Virus record (IMG/VR): IMGVR_UViG_3300028025_001883
Location: 1-21,124 of that record
From: a virus
Reading direction: 5' to 3' (one strand)
Length of the DNA stretch: 21,124 bases
Each line of letters opens with the position of its first letter. Positions within the stretch are counted from its first letter, which is position 1. Below the pieces are notes generated by a model. It saw only the letters and a program-made list of their open reading frames with translations, had not been told where the DNA came from and did not search any database. Below, piece by piece: positions 7,593-20,328 of the stretch. Made by a program: the position numbers and the translations under genes.

Positions 7593-7775
7593 ATGAGAGA
7601 CTACAAGAAAGAGTATCAGGAATATCACGGTAAGCCGAAACAGATTTCTCGCAGGGCAGGTCGTAACGCTGGACGCGCCAAGGCTGTGAAGCTAGGCATG
7701 GCATCCAACGGAGACGGCAAGGATGTTCACCACAAGAACAACGCTGAGTCCATCCACCCCGAATCGAAGCCCTAA
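7593..7775 (+). CDS. N-terminal half of an HNH-like small protein, interrupted
   Basis: A 60-residue product beginning MRDYKKEYQEYHGKPKQISR with an arginine-rich helix and then GDGKDVHHKNN. In the HNH-like family, HH is normally followed by N-P-x-x-N-R-x-x-N-L and an S-x-N-R tail. Here the sequence after HHKNN (AESIHPESKP) does not fit and stops. The missing C-terminal half, PKDNRASNLASTSVSKNRGF, is found 421 bases downstream in another frame. Joining base 7741 to 8163 restores an uninterrupted frame. Whether the short form keeps any function is unknown; the basic helix may still bind DNA. It could be annotated as a pseudogene fragment. Confidence 0.7.
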   Translation: MRDYKKEYQEYHGKPKQISRRAGRNAGRAKAVKLGMASNGDGKDVHHKNNAESIHPESKP

Positions 7776-8162
7776 GATTATGAAACAAAACCAAACTGAA
7801 TCGAAGCAGAAAGACATTGAAGAACCCCGTGATGAGGGGTTGGATGAGACGGCTTGTTCTCCGTCTTTTGTCGGGTATCTGCCCGAAAGTTGGTCAATGC
7901 TGAAAGACTCGATTTATGCAGCTCAAGAGGCTATCAGAGCAGGAATCGAAAACACTCAGGAGTTGCTGGCCGATCACGACGTGAGACTAGGGCGGACAAC
8001 TCGAAGCAACCGCTACACGGCGGAAAGGCTGGAAGGCGAAATCAGGCAAATGCAAGCCGCGCTCGATGGGCTCCAAAAACCAAACGGATGCGCCTACGGG
8101 GAAAGCTCGCCGATGGCTCCGCATGGTGCGCGGCGGCAAGTGGATCTATCTCTGGAGAACAA
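7735..8162 (+). repeat. AGAACAA direct repeats bounding the 421-bp interruption of the HNH-like gene
   Basis: AGAACAA occurs at 7735-7741 and at 8156-8162. Removing one copy plus the intervening DNA (7742-8162, 421 bp, one more than a multiple of three) fuses the HHKNN codons to the PKDNRASNL codons in frame. The repeat could be a target-site duplication, a recombination scar or microhomology at the junction. The inserted DNA carries its own start codon and a helical protein. No terminal inverted repeats or intron core were recognised. Confidence 0.6.
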
Positions 8163-8265
8163 TCCCAAGGATAACCGCGCCAGCAACCTCGCCTCTACCT
8201 CCGTAAGCAAGAATCGCGGATTCCCCCGCACAGCAAAGAATAAGCCCAAAGGACGACTCAAATGA
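7780..8265 (+). CDS. Coiled-coil protein fused to the C-terminal tail of the HNH-like protein
   Basis: A frame of 161 codons from ATG 7780. Residues 1-110 are acidic then helical (SWSMLKDSIYAAQEAIRAGI; ENTQELLADHDVRLGRTTRS; AERLEGEIRQMQAALDGLQK), a coiled-coil pattern that recurs, from memory, in small phage proteins. From about residue 128 the sequence changes to PKDNRASNLASTSVSKNRGF and a basic end, which is the expected C-terminus of the HNH-like protein begun at 7593. The fusion therefore looks like the product of a rearrangement. Between 8066 and 8206 another frame (M-G-S-K-N-Q..., with KARRWLRMVRGGKWIYLW) also looks protein-like and may be the cut-off start of a further small gene. The stop overlaps the next ATG (ATGA). 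Confidence 0.6.
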   Translation: MKQNQTESKQKDIEEPRDEGLDETACSPSFVGYLPESWSMLKDSIYAAQEAIRAGIENTQELLADHDVRLGRTTRSNRYTAERLEGEIRQMQAALDGLQKPNGCAYGESSPMAPHGARRQVDLSLENNPKDNRASNLASTSVSKNRGFPRTAKNKPKGRLK

Positions 8266-8538: not shown

Positions 8539-8576
8539 AGAGCCGTAGGGGTTAATCCTCTACGGTTCTTTTGTTT
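8539..8576 (+). terminator. Rho-independent terminator ending the packaging/portal unit
   Basis: A 13-bp stem (8539-8551 with 8557-8569, two G-T pairs), a 5-base loop TTAAT, and then TTTTGTTT. It lies about 65 bases after the last rightward gene and points rightward. A smaller CGCCG/CGGCG hairpin precedes it at 8504-8522. It ends just where the first attC-like palindrome begins. Confidence 0.85.
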
Positions 8577-8627
8577 GAACAGGTCGATACACTGAACGCT
8601 TTGCGTCAGTGATCTTGGCTGTTCGGC
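8577..8627 (+). repeat. attC-like palindrome A
   Basis: Folds as GAACAG (8577-8582) with CTGTTC (8619-8624); unpaired GTC opposite TTGG; GAT with ATC; extrahelical A8589; CACTGA (8590-8595) with TCAGTG (8606-8611); extrahelical A8596; CGC with GCG; loop TTT. The right end is GTTCGGC, one base off the integron R-prime consensus GTTRRRY. Two extrahelical bases separated by six paired bases are the hallmark of integron attC sites, and they lie in the left half, giving a rightward polarity. The stop codon of the leftward gene at 8606 is inside the stem. Nearly identical to the site at 17771. A structured terminator is the alternative reading. Confidence 0.65.
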
Positions 8628-8932
8628 AGACACAAAGAGCATCGGTGCGAATCGTTTGGACTCATGTTGAGTGCGTCGATTTTCCTCCGTAGGCGCATTC
8701 CAATGGTGCACGCTTCGCGCTCCGTCATCAGTCCCGATTTTTCCAGCGCCGCGAGATTACGCTGCATATCCAGCAGTCTGAGCGCCTGTCCTTTTTGCTC
8801 TGGACGCCAAGAGAATCCATCATCCTCCGCCTGCCTCCAAAAGCTCTTTGCATAGACTCCAAGACTGGGACGGAAGCGTGCCGAACAAGTCGCCGCACGC
8901 AACGGGCTATCGCTTTTCAATTTCTTTTTCAT
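8606..8932 (-). CDS. Small helical hypothetical protein, leftward cassette-like gene
   Basis: A 108-residue protein starting MKKKLKSDSPLRAATCSARF (a start 45 bases further upstream at 8977 is possible). The middle is helical (QKGQALRLLDMQRNLAALEK, MRLRRKIDALNMSP). I do not recognise a family. The gene starts inside the variable loop of attC-like site B and its stop (TGA read leftward, 8606-8608) lies in the stem of site A, so the gene spans almost exactly the DNA between the two sites. The C-terminal residues LPNSQDH are encoded by the palindrome itself. No clear Shine-Dalgarno is visible. The overlapping rightward frame at 8664-8855 has a poor, Ser/Cys-rich composition. Confidence 0.6.
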   Translation of the reverse strand: MKKKLKSDSPLRAATCSARFRPSLGVYAKSFWRQAEDDGFSWRPEQKGQALRLLDMQRNLAALEKSGLMTEREACTIGMRLRRKIDALNMSPNDSHRCSLCLPNSQDH

Positions 8933-8973
8933 AGTCGTTTCAGGTTCGCCCGTGCGTGGGCTAGACGTTCGCC
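8880..8973 (+). repeat. attC-like palindrome B (long variable loop)
   Basis: Left box GCCGAAC (8880-8886), right box GTTCGCC (8967-8973). Pairing: GAAC with GTTC; spacer AAGTC opposite TAGAC; GCC (8892-8894) with GGC (8959-8961); extrahelical G8895; CACGCA (8896-8901) with TGCGTG (8953-8958); extrahelical A8902; CGGGC (8903-8907) with GCCCG (8948-8952); then a 40-base variable loop. The primary sequence is unlike site A, but the order and sizes of paired and unpaired elements are the same, including the six-base separation of the extrahelical bases. The stop codon of the leftward gene at 8961 is in its right half. Confidence 0.65.
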
Positions 8974-9197
8974 TCACAAACGGAATGCGGAATCCCCGTT
9001 ATCAACCTGTCTGCGCCGGGACCGTCCATGTTCCACACAGTTGCGTCCACCGTATCAGCGTGGACTGCTTCGATTGTTGCCGCGCAATCAATTCCCCATC
9101 GGTTCTTGATCGGCACAGTTACAATGTCGCCCACAGAAAAAGGCGAACAAGGCGGTGGACCCAACAGAATCCCGTCGGTGTTTTCTGGTGTATTCAT
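8961..9197 (-). CDS. Small beta-barrel-like hypothetical protein
   Basis: A 78-residue product beginning MNTPENTDGILLGPPPCSPF. The core FSVGDIVTVPIKNRWGIDCA, then ATIEAVHADTVDATVW, alternates hydrophobic and polar residues with a V-G-D-x-V-x-V opening, as in small SH3-like barrels; this is inference from pattern. An alternative start at 9227 would add ten residues but overlaps the next gene. The C-terminus CEANV and the TAG stop are encoded within attC-like site B. Its start lies a few bases downstream of the stop of the gene at 9202, so the leftward genes are probably co-transcribed. Function unknown. Confidence 0.6.
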   Translation of the reverse strand: MNTPENTDGILLGPPPCSPFSVGDIVTVPIKNRWGIDCAATIEAVHADTVDATVWNMDGPGADRLITGIPHSVCEANV

Positions 9198-9201
9198 AGA
9201 T

Positions 9202-9492
9202 TTATTTTTCGGGACTCTGTGAGTCACCTTTGGCGTTCGGCAGAGAATTTTGACGGCACTCCACGGAATCCTCCCATGCTGGCTTGGGTGCGGGCTCGTG
9301 CTTCAGCCAGAGCTTGTGGCGTCCGCAGTCCACCAGCGTGTAAGCCTCCCAACGTCCACAGGGTTTGCAGTTACGGTGATGGTTGCAATTCGGGTGATCG
9401 TAGATCCATTGATGCCACCCGATCAGGCAACAAAGATGCCGAACAAAGCGTGCGAGAGCAATCCGCCCCCGCTGTGTTATCGAAGTTTTCAT
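9202..9492 (-). CDS. Small Cys/His-rich protein, DUF1660-like
   Basis: A 96-residue product starting MKTSITQRGRIALARFVRHL. It contains LCCLIGWHQWIYDHPNCNHH followed by RNCKPCGRWEAY, giving C-x-x-x-G-W-H and C-x-x-C-G pairs that could bind zinc, similar to the small prophage proteins grouped as DUF1660. The C-terminal tail ends LPNAKGDSQSPEK. The LPNAK codons are the right half of an attC-like sequence (GTTCGGC on the plus strand). The frame is open further upstream to 9591, but that extension overlaps the neighbouring gene. No clear Shine-Dalgarno. The rightward frame across 8952-9497 is judged a shadow. Confidence 0.6.
   Translation of the reverse strand: MKTSITQRGRIALARFVRHLCCLIGWHQWIYDHPNCNHHRNCKPCGRWEAYTLVDCGRHKLWLKHEPAPKPAWEDSVECRQNSLPNAKGDSQSPEK
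9213..9241 (+). repeat. Possible degenerate attC half-site
   Basis: GACTC TGT GAGTC forms a 5-bp hairpin (9213-9225), followed by ACCTTTGGC and GTTCGGC (9235-9241), very like the right half of site A (ATCTTGGCT then GTTCGGCAGA). No GAAC-type left box occurs at the expected distance, so it cannot fold as a full attC. It overlaps the 3-prime end of the leftward gene at 9202. It may be an eroded site or a truncated duplicate. Confidence 0.35.
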
Positions 9493-9497
9493 GGTAG

Positions 9498-9785
9498 TTA
9501 TTTTGCTTGGTGAGTATCGGAGGTCGGTGTCGGGGCGGATGCCTCCACTTGGTCGTTCGTAGGTAAGAAATGCCGTCCTTCCTTGCCGCATACGTCACAA
9601 CCAAAAAGTCGCTCTAGCCTAGAGACTTCCCTTCGTTGTGACTTGCAGAATAAATTTGTGAACGTCTGCACTGTTTCGCCAGTTACAAGGGATACTTTTG
9701 AGCTTAGGGGGCGGACGCAAACATCAATGTCCCTGATGTGTTTGTGGTGCTTGCAATTTCTGCAAATAGGAGTTTCAGTGTTCAT
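9498..9785 (-). CDS. Small Cys-rich zinc-ribbon-like phage protein
   Basis: A 95-residue protein with MNTETPICRNCKHHKHIRDI (C-x-x-C-x-H-H), V-C-V-R-P-L, F-C-K-S-Q-R and a second pair in GCDVCGKEGRHFLP. The order C-x-x-C...C-V-R-P...V-S-L-V-T-G...F-T...C...C-G-x-x-G-x-x-F recurs, from memory, in small phage proteins that probably bind a structural metal; no enzymatic role is known. It is the first gene of the leftward block; its leader lies in the 945-base control region and includes a GGGG/CCCC hairpin (9802-9816). It is followed by the gene at 9202-9492 after 5 bases. Confidence 0.75.
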   Translation of the reverse strand: MNTETPICRNCKHHKHIRDIDVCVRPLSSKVSLVTGETVQTFTNLFCKSQRREVSRLERLFGCDVCGKEGRHFLPTNDQVEASAPTPTSDTHQAK

Positions 9786-17735: not shown

Positions 17736-17770
17736 GCCCTCCCGCAAGGATAAGGGCGAAGGCGTCAATC

Positions 17771-17821
17771 GAACAGGTCGATGCGGTGAACGCTGCGCGT
17801 CACCGATCTTGGCTGTTAGCC
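17771..17821 (+). repeat. attC-like palindrome D
   Basis: Folds like site A: AACAG with CTGTT; spacer GTC opposite TTGG; GAT with ATC; extrahelical G17783; CGGTGA (17784-17789) with TCACCG (17800-17805); extrahelical A17790; CGC with GCG; loop TGC. The right end GTTAGCC differs at one base from R-prime consensus GTTRRRY. Compared with site A, two stem pairs changed on both sides (A-T to G-C and C-G to G-C), keeping the fold. The TGA stop of the leftward gene at 17800 lies in the stem. It separates the rightward late module from the second leftward block. It could also act as a convergent terminator, though it has no T-run. Confidence 0.65.
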
Positions 17822-18033
17822 AGAGCAATCAACTCGTTAGCAAGTGCCCGTAATTGGTCTGGCGTTACATCCACCCCAAACCAACCGTCACAGCATTCAC
17901 CCACCGTAAAATTGCCGTCTTTGCCGAGTTTTACATCAAACACCCTATTGGCTTTCACGGCTTCTAGCATGGTTTGGTATTCCACAGTTTCTAGGTTTTC
18001 GTTTGACGTGTATTCTTTAATTTCGTAGGTCAT
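17800..18033 (-). CDS. Small hypothetical protein ending in attC-like site D
   Basis: A 77-residue acidic protein: MTYEIKEYTSNENLETVEYQ, LEAVKANRVFDVKLGKDGNF, TVGECCDGWFGVDVTPDQLR, and a C-terminal helix ending ANSQDR. The pattern suggests a small alpha/beta fold; no family recognised. It is the last gene of the second leftward block. Its last codons and stop are part of the attC-like palindrome, exactly as for the gene at 8606, whose C-terminus (PNSQDH) is encoded by the same palindrome half. The upstream leader (TCCTTCTTTTTATATTT) lacks a clear Shine-Dalgarno. Confidence 0.7.
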   Translation of the reverse strand: MTYEIKEYTSNENLETVEYQTMLEAVKANRVFDVKLGKDGNFTVGECCDGWFGVDVTPDQLRALANELIALANSQDR

Positions 18034-18093
18034 AAATATAAAAAGAAGGATAACAAGTGGATGCTGGCAACGGCGGGAAGTTGCCTGTTTGGT

Positions 18094-18324
18094 TTATTCG
18101 GAGCCCTGCGCCCGCCGCGCCAGATCCTTGTCGTTCGTCTCAATAATCTTCCCTGCCCAGTCGGTGACAGTTCCATCGGGATGCGTCACCTTGCCGTTTT
18201 CGATGGTCACTTTCCCGTTGCCCACCGTGAAGGATTGAAGCACGACTCTGCCGCGTTCGCTTTCTGTTGTTGATCCAAGCACGCGATATTCGCGGCCTCC
18301 AATAGTTTTCAGTTTCGTTTTCAT
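18094..18324 (-). CDS. Small beta-rich hypothetical protein
   Basis: A 76-residue protein: MKTKLKTIGGREYRVLGSTT, SERGRVVLQSFTVGNGKVTI, ENGKVTHPDGTVTDWAGKII and a charged end (TNDKDLARRAQGSE). Repeated G-x-V-T turns indicate a small beta-sheet or barrel. No family recognised. It lies two bases downstream of the Cys-rich gene at 18327 and is followed by a 60-base gap containing a GGCAAC/GTTGCC hairpin (about 18069-18088). Probably part of the leftward operon. Confidence 0.7.
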   Translation of the reverse strand: MKTKLKTIGGREYRVLGSTTESERGRVVLQSFTVGNGKVTIENGKVTHPDGTVTDWAGKIIETNDKDLARRAQGSE

Positions 18325-18326
18325 AG

Positions 18327-18584
18327 TTACCAGAATGTGCAGTCTTCAGCTTTGCCTGAGCCTCCGCAGCAGGTGCAGCGATAGAATTGATCGGGATCAT
18401 ACCAGCCTGGATCGCCAAGCTCGGAGCCTTCCACGAGTCCCTCACCGCCGCAGAAGTGGCAGGGATCGTCATCATCGAATTGGCAATCGTCGTCCTGCGT
18501 TGAAGAAGACGAACAAGACACTCCTGCCAATGCCTGCCCGTCGGCAGTTTGGTCAGGAATCGGAGTTTGAGGGCGGGCAGTCAT
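18327..18584 (-). CDS. Small zinc-finger-like protein with DnaJ-type Cys motifs
   Basis: An 85-residue protein with a Ser/Asp-rich N-terminus (SCSSSSTQDDDCQFDDDD) and a C-terminal half containing CHFCGGEGLVEGS and YRCTCCGGSGKAEDC. C-x-x-C-G-G-x-G and C-x-x-C-G-G-S-G are the two halves of a DnaJ-like central zinc finger, here reduced to one zinc-binding unit. Similar very small proteins recur in phages, from memory, with no known role. It overlaps the gene at 18581 by ATGA, so it is translationally coupled. Confidence 0.75.
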   Translation of the reverse strand: MTARPQTPIPDQTADGQALAGVSCSSSSTQDDDCQFDDDDPCHFCGGEGLVEGSELGDPGWYDPDQFYRCTCCGGSGKAEDCTFW

Positions 18585-18910
18585 GGCAGAGTTTTTGCGT
18601 TCTCCAATAAAGTAATAGAGATAATTGTCAGATCTGATGGCGGAATGGGGTTCTCAAACTTAGACACAATCGCAGCTTTCAGATCCATGTAATCCGTCCA
18701 CGTGATGATCGGCTTGTTCTGTGTAGCGATGCCGTCGGTATAGGCCGTCCCCCCAGTTTTTGGCGCGTGGACAGCGCAGTAATGGTAAATCCATCTAGGA
18801 GAACAAGCCGCGGCAGACGAACCACGAGCACACGTCTCGCACGGCTCGCCTTTCATAGCCATTCCGTCCGTCATCCCGCATACTGGGCATTGCATTATTG
18901 AGGTGCTCAT
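18581..18910 (-). CDS. Cys-containing hypothetical protein (109 aa)
   Basis: The N-terminus IMQCPVCGMTDGMAMKGEPC, then ETCARG, has two C-x-x-C pairs that probably bind zinc. A middle aromatic segment (PRWIYHYCAVHAPKTGG) and a helical end (TWTDYMDLKAAIVSKFENPI, PPSDLTIISITLLENAK) follow. The W-x-D-Y-x-x-L-K...P-P-x-x-x-T-I-I-S-I-x-L-L pattern recurs, from memory, in phage proteins of unknown role. It is in the leftward operon, overlapping the gene at 18327 by ATGA and 18 bases downstream of the gene at 18929. Confidence 0.75.
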   Translation of the reverse strand: MSTSIMQCPVCGMTDGMAMKGEPCETCARGSSAAACSPRWIYHYCAVHAPKTGGTAYTDGIATQNKPIITWTDYMDLKAAIVSKFENPIPPSDLTIISITLLENAKTLP

Positions 18911-18928
18911 GGTCGCTGCGCTGTGGCG

Positions 18929-19114
18929 TTAGTATTCATGCAGTGTTTCAGGAAACTCATAGACGGCGTGAATCCGTTCCATGATTGCGGATTGAACAGC
19001 TTCCTCGATTTGCTCGTAAGAAGGATCTTCCGTGTGCTTATGCGCTCTTGAAACGCCGTATCTACAGCCTTCCTCGATGCAGTTGCTCAGTATTGCTAGG
19101 TGTTTTGGTTTCAT
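18929..19114 (-). CDS. Small helical hypothetical protein
   Basis: A 61-residue product starting MKPKHLAILSNCIEEGCRYG and continuing VSRAHKHTEDPSYEQIEEAV and QSAIMERIHAVYEF. It is all-helical and acidic; no family with known function. The start at 19114 lies one base after the stop of the RuvC-like gene; ATG 19135 is an alternative that would add seven residues and overlap that gene. The pattern L-A-x-L-x-x-C-x-x-x-G-x-x-Y-G with R-A-x-K-H-T recurs, from memory, in phages, which supports the shorter form. Confidence 0.7.
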   Translation of the reverse strand: MKPKHLAILSNCIEEGCRYGVSRAHKHTEDPSYEQIEEAVQSAIMERIHAVYEFPETLHEY

Positions 19115-19115
19115 A

Positions 19116-19544
19116 TCAGTGTTGTTTAGTTCCATATGTTGCGATTAGTAGAGAGTCTGCTGTTGCGTGAGTGACCTTTAGGCTTGGGAAAAGCTCCTGA
19201 GCCTTCCGCTTGGTGATGTTTTTATCTCCTTTCGTCATACATCCAAGCTCTTTCTGCCAGACTTGAGGACGAACCCTTGTGAAGGGGATTCCCGCCGCTG
19301 TTAATGCCATCTCAAGGTGTCCGAATCCATTGCCGAAAGTGAAGGCGGATTTCACTCCCATCTGAGGGGATGAATGGACTTGCTCGATGTAAGCATGGCA
19401 ATACTCCTCGCTGGAAACTTCAATATCGCGTAGCATCTCCCACAAGTCTTGCAGGGTGTCCGGCATCTTCTCCACGCAGGGTTTCCCGCCCGTGATCCAT
19501 GCGATACCGCCATTGACTCCAGGGTCACAGCCTATGACGGTCAT
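19116..19544 (-). CDS. RuvC-like Holliday junction resolvase
   Basis: A 142-residue RNase H-fold endonuclease. Catalytic carboxylates sit in the expected motifs: MTVIGCDPGVNGG (Asp7), AYIEQV (Glu54), and THATADSLLIATYG (His126, Asp130). A segment with glycine-rich loop and helix (KSAFTFGNGFGHLEMALTAA) and RVRPQVWQKELG match phage RuvC-type enzymes, which resolve branched DNA before packaging or in recombination. Length is near that of small phage resolvases. It overlaps the upstream gene by ATGA and belongs to the leftward replication/accessory operon. Confidence 0.88.
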   Translation of the reverse strand: MTVIGCDPGVNGGIAWITGGKPCVEKMPDTLQDLWEMLRDIEVSSEEYCHAYIEQVHSSPQMGVKSAFTFGNGFGHLEMALTAAGIPFTRVRPQVWQKELGCMTKGDKNITKRKAQELFPSLKVTHATADSLLIATYGTKQH

Positions 19545-19942
19545 GGTTTTGCGTTCTGGGTTAGGGATTGGAGGGCTTCGTCTGCCATTTCTAAGACGAC
19601 CTCACGATATTTCTTGAGGGCAGGCTCAGGCATTGTGTCATAATCAAATGATGATACATTGAAAATTTCTTTCAACGCCTCCGCCAGCCTGTCGCGCTGT
19701 TGTTCCAGATCCTGCACGTAACCATTTCGGCTGATTGTGACCGCTCCCATCGTTTGTGTGAGTCGTGATTTGAGTTGTCCGACCTCCTTCGCCAGCCTGT
19801 CGCGCTGCTCGGTGACGGCGGCGAGTTGACGCTCTAGGTATTGACTTTTATCGTCAGCGGCTATCCACGCTTTACGCAACCCTCTCGATTCAGCTCTTTC
19901 AGCGTTTATTGCACCGTGGTCAGGGTCATTGCATTCATTCAT
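19541..19942 (-). CDS. Coiled-coil protein with QRDRLAE heptads, paralogue 1
   Basis: A 133-residue product starting MNECNDPDHGAINAERAESR. Long helices contain QLAAVTEQRDRLAKEVGQLK and QDLEQQRDRLAEALKEIFNV, two copies of the QRDRLAxE unit, a coiled-coil pattern. The end ALQSLTQNAKP is nearly that of the neighbouring gene at 19939, and a 19-bp identical sequence (GTTAGGGATTGGAGGGCTT) encodes it in both, so the two are tandem paralogues. The start at 19942 gives an ATGA overlap with that gene; a start at 19993 would lie inside it. Function unknown; proteins of this style recur, from memory, in environmental phages. Confidence 0.75.
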   Translation of the reverse strand: MNECNDPDHGAINAERAESRGLRKAWIAADDKSQYLERQLAAVTEQRDRLAKEVGQLKSRLTQTMGAVTISRNGYVQDLEQQRDRLAEALKEIFNVSSFDYDTMPEPALKKYREVVLEMADEALQSLTQNAKP

Positions 19943-20328
19943 AGTTCGTTCGGGGTTAGGGATTGGAGGGCTTTTTGGGCAACAGATCTGCATCCATGTC
20001 CATTATCGCATTGCATATCTGTGTAATCGAATGTCGTAATCATTTGTAACGCCTCCGCCAGCCTGTCTCGCTGCTCAGTAATCTCGGAGAGTGTTTTCAT
20101 GTCCCCTAAAATCTCAGCCAGCCTGTCCCGCTGCTTTATTGCTTCATGCAGTTCCGCGCCCAAATACTCGCAGCATTGACCTTTGGCTAACCATTTTTCG
20201 CGCATGTCATTTCCCTGTTTCCGCGCCTCGTCCCGCTCGCGCCTAGCTTCTTTTAAGAGTTCCCATGCAGCCAGTTCACATTGAAGGTCGTTCTCAGCAT
20301 CCGTCTCAGGTGTTGGTCGTGTGTTCAT
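19939..20328 (-). CDS. Coiled-coil protein with QRDRLAE heptads, paralogue 2
   Basis: A 129-residue product starting MNTRPTPETDAENDLQCELA, a T-P-E-T-D-A opening that recurs, from memory, in this kind of phage protein. Helical segments contain LLKEARRERDEARKQGNDMR, EAIKQRDRLAEILGDMK and EITEQRDRLAEALQMITTFD. The end CRSVAQKALQSLTPNEL resembles the downstream paralogue. It is expected to form an extended coiled coil; no catalytic motif. It overlaps both neighbours by ATGA. The repeated QRDRLAE coding unit occurs four times across the two genes at DNA level (near 19682, 19792, 20053 and 20119). Confidence 0.75.
   Translation of the reverse strand: MNTRPTPETDAENDLQCELAAWELLKEARRERDEARKQGNDMREKWLAKGQCCEYLGAELHEAIKQRDRLAEILGDMKTLSEITEQRDRLAEALQMITTFDYTDMQCDNGHGCRSVAQKALQSLTPNEL

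Follow-up and report, generated by a model that had tools for sequence, protein, structure and literature searches.

The phage locus and its attC sites

In this study, a stretch of 21,124 bp (hereafter the window) was analysed, a virus record, itself incomplete, from a tailed phage. Its genes include those for a terminase, an SU10-type major capsid protein, a CHAP endolysin and a RuvC-like protein. Nine integron attC sites were identified in three clusters, which comprise the arrays A-B-C-E and D-F-H-I and a single site, G, belonging to a cassette that lies within an HNH_3 gene (Table 1). Both arrays fit the description of two or more same-orientation attC sites within a few kb with no integrase nearby. 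The cassette proteins of the window gave no convincing match in Pfam, PHROG, NCBIfam or PADLOC, and the OXA and lanthipeptide rows returned for them lay far below cut-off and were taken as chance. Beyond the attC chain, the place of the gene at 9498-9785 is taken by other genes in related phages.

Table 1. Positions of attC sites, cassettes and associated genes in the window.
Feature	Position	Strand	Description
attC site A	8574-8627	+	27.0 bits; 3-nt loop; left end of array
attC site B	8880-8973	+	57.3 bits, E 1.9e-13 (covariance model); also found by the structural scanner
attC site C	9142-9241	+	58.6 bits, E 9e-14; loop holds ATG of gene 8961-9197
attC site E	9438-9561	+	46.7 bits; right end of A-B-C-E; loop holds ATG of gene 9202-9492
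attC site G	7736-7862	-	38.8 bits on -; loop holds ATG of + strand cassette gene
attC site D	17768-17821	+	28.8 bits; second copy of the A-type (putative landing) site, 83% identical to A
attC site F	18048-18139	+	38.8 bits
attC site H	18508-18605	+	46.5 bits; start of gene 18327-18584 inside site (L' arm)
attC site I	18798-18934	+	41.2 bits; start codon of gene 18581-18910 inside site, probably in the L' arm
Cassette 1	8621-8966		346 bp, from G|TT of A (8621) to G|TT of B (8967)
Cassette-1 gene	8606-8932	-	108 aa; antisense to attC
Cassette-2 gene	8961-9197	-	78 aa; runs from loop of C to a TAG stop inside site B
Cassette-3 gene	9202-9492	-	about 96 aa; runs from loop of E to a stop in loop of C
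First gene of the putative leftward operon	9498-9785	-	Cys-rich, 95 aa; beyond the attC chain
Single cassette in HNH_3 gene	7741-8157		at bare AAC (GTT on - strand), AAC at both ends
Site-G cassette gene	7780-8265	+	161 aa; antisense to attC; start in loop of G
N-terminal remnant of interrupted HNH gene	7593-7775	+	stop from site G
Four genes of the D-F-H-I array	17800-18033, 18094-18324, 18327-18584, 18581-18910	-	antisense to attC

Identification of attC sites

A structural scanner was set to the layout of AAC, a spacer of 4-6 nt, a 3-bp box, a single unpaired base, a helix of about 6 bp, in most cases an unpaired A, a stem and a loop, followed on the far side by the mirror arrangement with 4-7 nt ahead of GTT. 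In the window, it detected 6 sites on the + strand and 1 on the - strand, compared with 4 matches altogether (one strand) in 600 dinucleotide shuffles of the window and no site in 98.8 kb of unrelated phage loci. A covariance model built only from 36 Verrucomicrobia attC sites, most of them adjoining integron-integrase genes, recovered nine sites in the window at 27.0-58.6 bits, the next best candidate scoring 13.1 bits (E 0.045). Covariation within the training alignment is partly built in, because the training sites were picked by the structural scanner; the test on the window is unaffected. Chance folding, a doubt that the initial annotation of the window had attached to its own proposal, is excluded by the shuffles, the unrelated loci and the independent covariance model. 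An Rfam search of the window returned nothing relevant, with a single sub-threshold ctRNA match.

All nine sites possess the palindrome R''-L''-loop-L'-R' with AAC/GTT cores, and extrahelical bases at a fixed spacing in L'', which give the strand, are present (extrahelical base, 6 nt, then A in sites A and B, and similar in the others). The R' consensus GTTRRRY is not met, most sites of the window having GTTC and sites D and I having GTTAGCC and GTTAGTA; the Verrucomicrobia sites that served to train the model likewise favour GTTC. Site B and the eight others are genuine integron attC sites, and recombination at them is inferred from breakpoint footprints at GTT, no recombination assay being available.

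Site B consists of R'' (GCCGAAC), spacer AAGTC, box GCC, extrahelical G, stem CACGCA, extrahelical A, stem CGGGC, a 40-nt loop, and the far side GCCCG, TGCGTG, GGC, TAGAC and R' (GTTCGCC). This architecture, with its boxes, spacer, extrahelical bases, stems and 40-base loop, had been proposed in the initial annotation and held to the base, and the covariance-model match ends exactly where that annotation had placed them (8880-8973). Site B scored 57.3 bits on the + strand vs 6.1 bits on the - strand, and the direction of the attC sites is thus fixed. The distance of about 346 bp proposed between A and B is also confirmed, being 346 bp from G|TT to G|TT. Two further claims were incomplete: three attC-like sites had been recognised, and the window has nine; exactly one gene (8606-8932) had been placed between A and B, and that gene runs antisense to the sites and spans into both of them. 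The initial annotation had overlooked the other six sites, the antisense direction of the genes, the HNH-gene cassette, the link to Verrucomicrobia integrons and the complementarity of the A and B boxes.

An integron cassette opens with bases (TTRRRY) that are complementary to the R'' box of that same cassette, and in consecutive sites the R' of the first is therefore expected to be reverse-complementary to the R'' of the second. The R' of site A (GTTCGGC) is the exact reverse complement of the R'' of site B (GCCGAAC), so that cassette 1 has complementary ends of its own (TTCGGC/GCCGAA), and this exact complementarity is the signature of a single cassette. Chaining was 7/7 for the pairs A-B, B-C, C-E, F-H and H-I and 6/7 for D-F, and in phage and host loci elsewhere at least 6/7 was reached by 52 of 62 adjacent pairs. 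A 73-kb phage contig carries a run of seven attC sites with perfect chaining, and the type of site F recurs in the array of a 73-kb phage. The chain rule is thereby demonstrated directly.

An imperfect inverted repeat of 34 nt (8079-8112 and 8674-8707, 74%) is shared between two different cassettes. It was considered as a sign of related genes and rejected, the protein comparison giving no similarity.

Exchange of cassettes behind site A

At least 598 terminase relatives were found in IMG/VR, and among 65 distinct versions of the locus 12 carry site A. Its upstream flank and hairpin are common to these relatives, and the sequence immediately after the GTT differs in 12/12 (mean identity 0.29, maximum 0.42 over 60 nt), so exact breakpoints are directly shown. 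Two contigs, L118 and the 70.6-kb L090, have an identical stretch of 190 bp (100%) behind site A and different upstream flanks. No match to site A was found in bacterial species genomes, phage records or plasmids.

A protein search with the product of the cassette-1 gene matched three contigs, in each case over no more than the 17-22 residues that site B encodes, followed by a different gene body. The gene is not universal among related phages. Leaders shared by different gene bodies are directly observed, namely MKKKLKSDSPLRAATCS, the leader of the cassette-1 gene encoded by site B, and MNTPTNSEALPLTNCS, encoded by another attC type. The check proposed in the initial annotation, a comparison of related contigs at the G-TT positions, thus showed the flank and site A kept and everything beyond GTT changed; its proposal of a CALIN-like cassette bounded by attC sites without an integrase is supported by this comparison of related phages, and its other doubt, that relatives might always contain the gene, was not borne out, the body of 8606-8932 being missing from the contigs that share its leader.

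Several variants of site A were also observed. In L021 (6718-6730) it seems to have collapsed to GAACAGGGCTGTT, as though the hairpin had been deleted, and the A-type sites at L106:3205 and in L108 (- strand) are truncated on the right side (GATCTTGGTTCGTG) and followed by nearly the same sequence. Two contigs of 70-73 kb with A-type sites carry single ORFs of 4,291 aa (L190:29-12904) and 5,098 aa (L202:1612-16908).

A cassette inserted in an HNH gene

The cassette of site G falls in the HHKN..NR region of a conserved HNH protein, which it interrupts, and the cassette gene forms an in-frame fusion with the C-terminal portion of that protein (NPKDNRASNLAS..). Ten relatives (L003, L014, L018, L020, L021, L040, L052, L088, L123 and L144) have the uninterrupted junction, ..AAGAACAACAATCCC.. 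or a close variant of it, and the window reads ..AAGAACAAC|GCTGAG .. GGAGAAC|AATCCC... The intact gene in L003 encodes an HNH_3 protein (E 1.2e-6). The precise insertion is thus directly demonstrated. Insertion of cassettes at GTT outside attC and attI, termed attG, has been described in bacterial genomes (Loot et al. 2024, cited in PMC12901181), and the cassette at 7741-8157 meets the definition of a precise insertion at GTT without attC or attI and with a known empty site. By analogy, it resembles a natural attG case, the finer sequence requirements of attG not being covered here; it differs in that a phage gene was hit and that the event was recognised against uninterrupted relatives. Insertion at a bare GTT has so far been described for integron integrases on bacterial genomes, and the HNH case, set against uninterrupted relatives, constitutes natural evidence for it.

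Alternatively, the sites might be conserved intergenic hairpins of regulatory or terminator-like function, with gene content varied by homologous recombination between the repeats. Some attC modules (A, B and the MNTP-leader type) are indeed conserved enough for homology, and phages recombine readily. However, the HNH-gene insertion shows no end homology other than AAC, which largely refutes this explanation; twelve different neighbours all break at GTT, and the R'/R'' chaining would be unexpected from repeat-mediated exchange. We therefore regard the hairpin explanation as very improbable, and integron cassettes remain the preferred reading.

Gene orientation and start codons within attC

Every cassette gene of the window lies antisense to its attC sites. 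This rule is not positional, because the genes are on the - strand in the two + strand arrays but on the + strand at site G. By ORF length, 28 of 52 phage cassettes were called antisense, 7 sense and 17 ambiguous, vs 0 antisense, 46 sense and 7 ambiguous in Verrucomicrobia arrays analysed with the same code (Fisher p 1.5e-15), and this orientation bias is shown directly. On inspection by eye, at least some of the phage cassettes called sense look misread, and the counts given are those before any such correction. A canonical cassette would carry an attC-sense gene with attC at its 3' end, which is not the case here, the genes being antisense.

Frames of at least 60 codons that begin at an antisense ATG within the loop were found at 70 of 107 phage sites (those with a loop of at least 20 nt), vs 8 of 77 bacterial sites. 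Within the window, gene starts lie in the loops of B, C, E and G (the 40-nt loop of B holds the ATG of the cassette-1 gene), inside the site and outside the loop in H and probably in I, and just outside the site in F. Sites A and D, with 3-nt loops, supply stops only: the cassette-1 gene, the last one on the - strand, takes its stop codon (..NSQDH*) from site A, and its last codons and stop are inside that site, past the crossover point. Since the genes run antisense and often start inside attC, the attC appears to be both swap site and expression signal. A promoter scan for the leftward operon found no sigma-70-like consensus.

Among the ten longest antisense frames, four match Mom, N6_N4_Mtase, Methyltransf and PAPS_reduct, and domain matches were obtained for 0/10 of the longest sense frames. 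Cassettes encoding Mom, an N6/N4 methyltransferase, another methyltransferase and a PAPS-reductase-domain protein were located at L228:9618-10448, L237:21-881, L229:7916-8737 and L223:1994-2914, respectively.

It could be argued that the arrays are immobile relics of host integrons picked up by chance and that the antisense ORFs are an annotation artefact. In favour of this, phage CALINs have been attributed to mosaicism and illegitimate recombination (Qi et al. 2023, PMC9892861). Against it, the same 190-bp cassette stretch occurs in two different contexts, the HNH insertion is present in this contig and in 0/10 relatives, different cassettes follow site A in 12/12 cases, and Pfam domains are found in antisense and not in sense ORFs, with host arrays oppositely oriented. 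The relic explanation is thus highly unlikely, and mobile cassettes with antisense genes are the reading we retain.

Integrase and host

No tyrosine recombinase (PF00589) was found in 20 phage records of up to 73 kb, and no integron integrase (TIGR02249) in 20 phage records, the largest of 197 kb, the two sets partly overlapping. A complete integron, with intI, attI and Pc beside the array, is thus not represented, given the lack of TIGR02249 matches in these 20 records; an integrase elsewhere in these phages is not excluded, because many of the contigs are fragments. A single attC type, AACAANNCGTGNGAGGCAACGC, was used as a probe and occurred in 4 of 84,980 species genomes, all of them Verrucomicrobiota MAGs, and a slightly shorter pattern occurred in 46 stretches of IMG/VR. 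The L254 contig, which belongs to one of these MAGs, has an integrase (330 bits) adjoining an attC array, and in Verrucomicrobiales, the order of this MAG, 70 of 190 genomes passed the TIGR02249 cut-off. Since no integrase was found in the phage records searched and both the attC type and integrases occur in Verrucomicrobiota, the host integrase is the likely catalyst, putatively acting in trans on phage attC. Verrucomicrobia are the probable host, an inference from attC similarity and from weak terminase homologs, which were found in 8 of 388 genomes and make a poor host link.

A further alternative is that the attC-like sites are cut by a phage- or satellite-encoded enzyme that follows the same G|TT rule. 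This is consistent with the systematic difference in gene orientation between phage and host, which suggests that the two pools are at least partly separate, and with the incompleteness of many phage contigs. Nevertheless, no candidate enzyme appeared among the PF00589 and TIGR02249 searches above, and phage sites reach as much as 58.6 bits under a model that was built from host attC sites. An enzyme of phage or satellite origin thus seems very doubtful, and we favour the host integrase.

Proposed mechanism and relation to known systems

Taken as integron attC cassettes with antisense genes, mobilised by a host integrase in trans, the arrays are very likely explained (probability about 0.85). 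In this model, an infected verrucomicrobial cell would supply its integron integrase, which would act on the bottom strand of attC in its folded form, and small cassettes would be cut and joined where the R' box reads G|TT. Site A and its copy D would be landing sites borne by the phage, behind which different phages hold different cassettes, and cassettes may also land at bare GTT positions such as that in the HNH gene. The array would be read as a leftward operon transcribed from the right, each attC putatively providing a stop for the preceding gene and, mostly, equipping the following one with its upstream region, start codon and leader peptide; this scheme of transcription and translation is inferred. 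A new body joined at G|TT would therefore bring its own start and find its stop in the neighbour, and gene bodies could thus be swapped without loss of expression signals. The DNA-modification cargo in cassettes of other phages may shield phage DNA from restriction, a benefit such as counter-defence being likewise inferred. More boldly, phages might keep a cassette pool of their own in which attC serves as hairpin and opposite-strand expression module, spreading between unrelated phages through a borrowed Verrucomicrobia integrase and delivering DNA-modification genes among others, a proposal towards which the balance of evidence tips slightly.

Attachment-site arrays without integrase in phage genomes are not new. 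CALINs have been reported in 21 phages, with attC sites of virulent phages recombined by IntI1 and two virulent-phage arrays oriented as typical bacterial arrays (Qi et al. 2023, PMC9892861). The phage family of the window differs in that its cassette genes are antisense to attC. The sections of PMC9892861 that bear on the matter mention no Verrucomicrobia, no start codons in attC, and no swaps or insertions between close relatives, and, unlike that report, one phage family here combines a Verrucomicrobia link, starts in attC, swaps and insertions. Chromosomal integrons of Verrucomicrobiota share with the phage arrays the attC architecture and R'/R'' chaining, and a model from their sites finds the phage sites; however, their genes are sense (46 vs 0 antisense), an integrase is present, their loops are longer (median 61 nt vs 35 nt in phages) and starts in the loop are rare.

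It has been reviewed that translation can be coupled through ORF-11 of attI1 and short ORFs of attC, and that antisense promoters are known in ORF-less cassettes (PMC8876359). As in ORF-11 coupling, an att site here provides translation signals to a cassette gene. The difference is that ORF-11 works in the sense direction and aids a gene with its own start, whereas phage attC carries the start and first residues on the opposite strand. No cassettes with genes starting inside attC on the opposite strand were found in the open-access literature searched, subscription papers being mostly outside the search. While phage CALINs and attG insertion are already known, a phage pool of antisense cassettes with starts supplied by attC is likely to be new.

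If the proposal is true, integrons serve phages too, and a phage without a recombinase could swap small genes singly by means of the host integrase. A host integron capturing an antisense cassette would not express it in the usual way, which could keep the pools apart. Antisense cassettes also bear on the open question of cassette origin, because one attC module joins many bodies and supplies the start.

Elsewhere in the window, adjacent - strand genes at 19541-20328 repeat the motif ..QRDRLAEAL.. and have in common a 27-nt repeat (19552-19578 and 19947-19973, 96%); they encode coiled-coil-like phage proteins with no link to attC.
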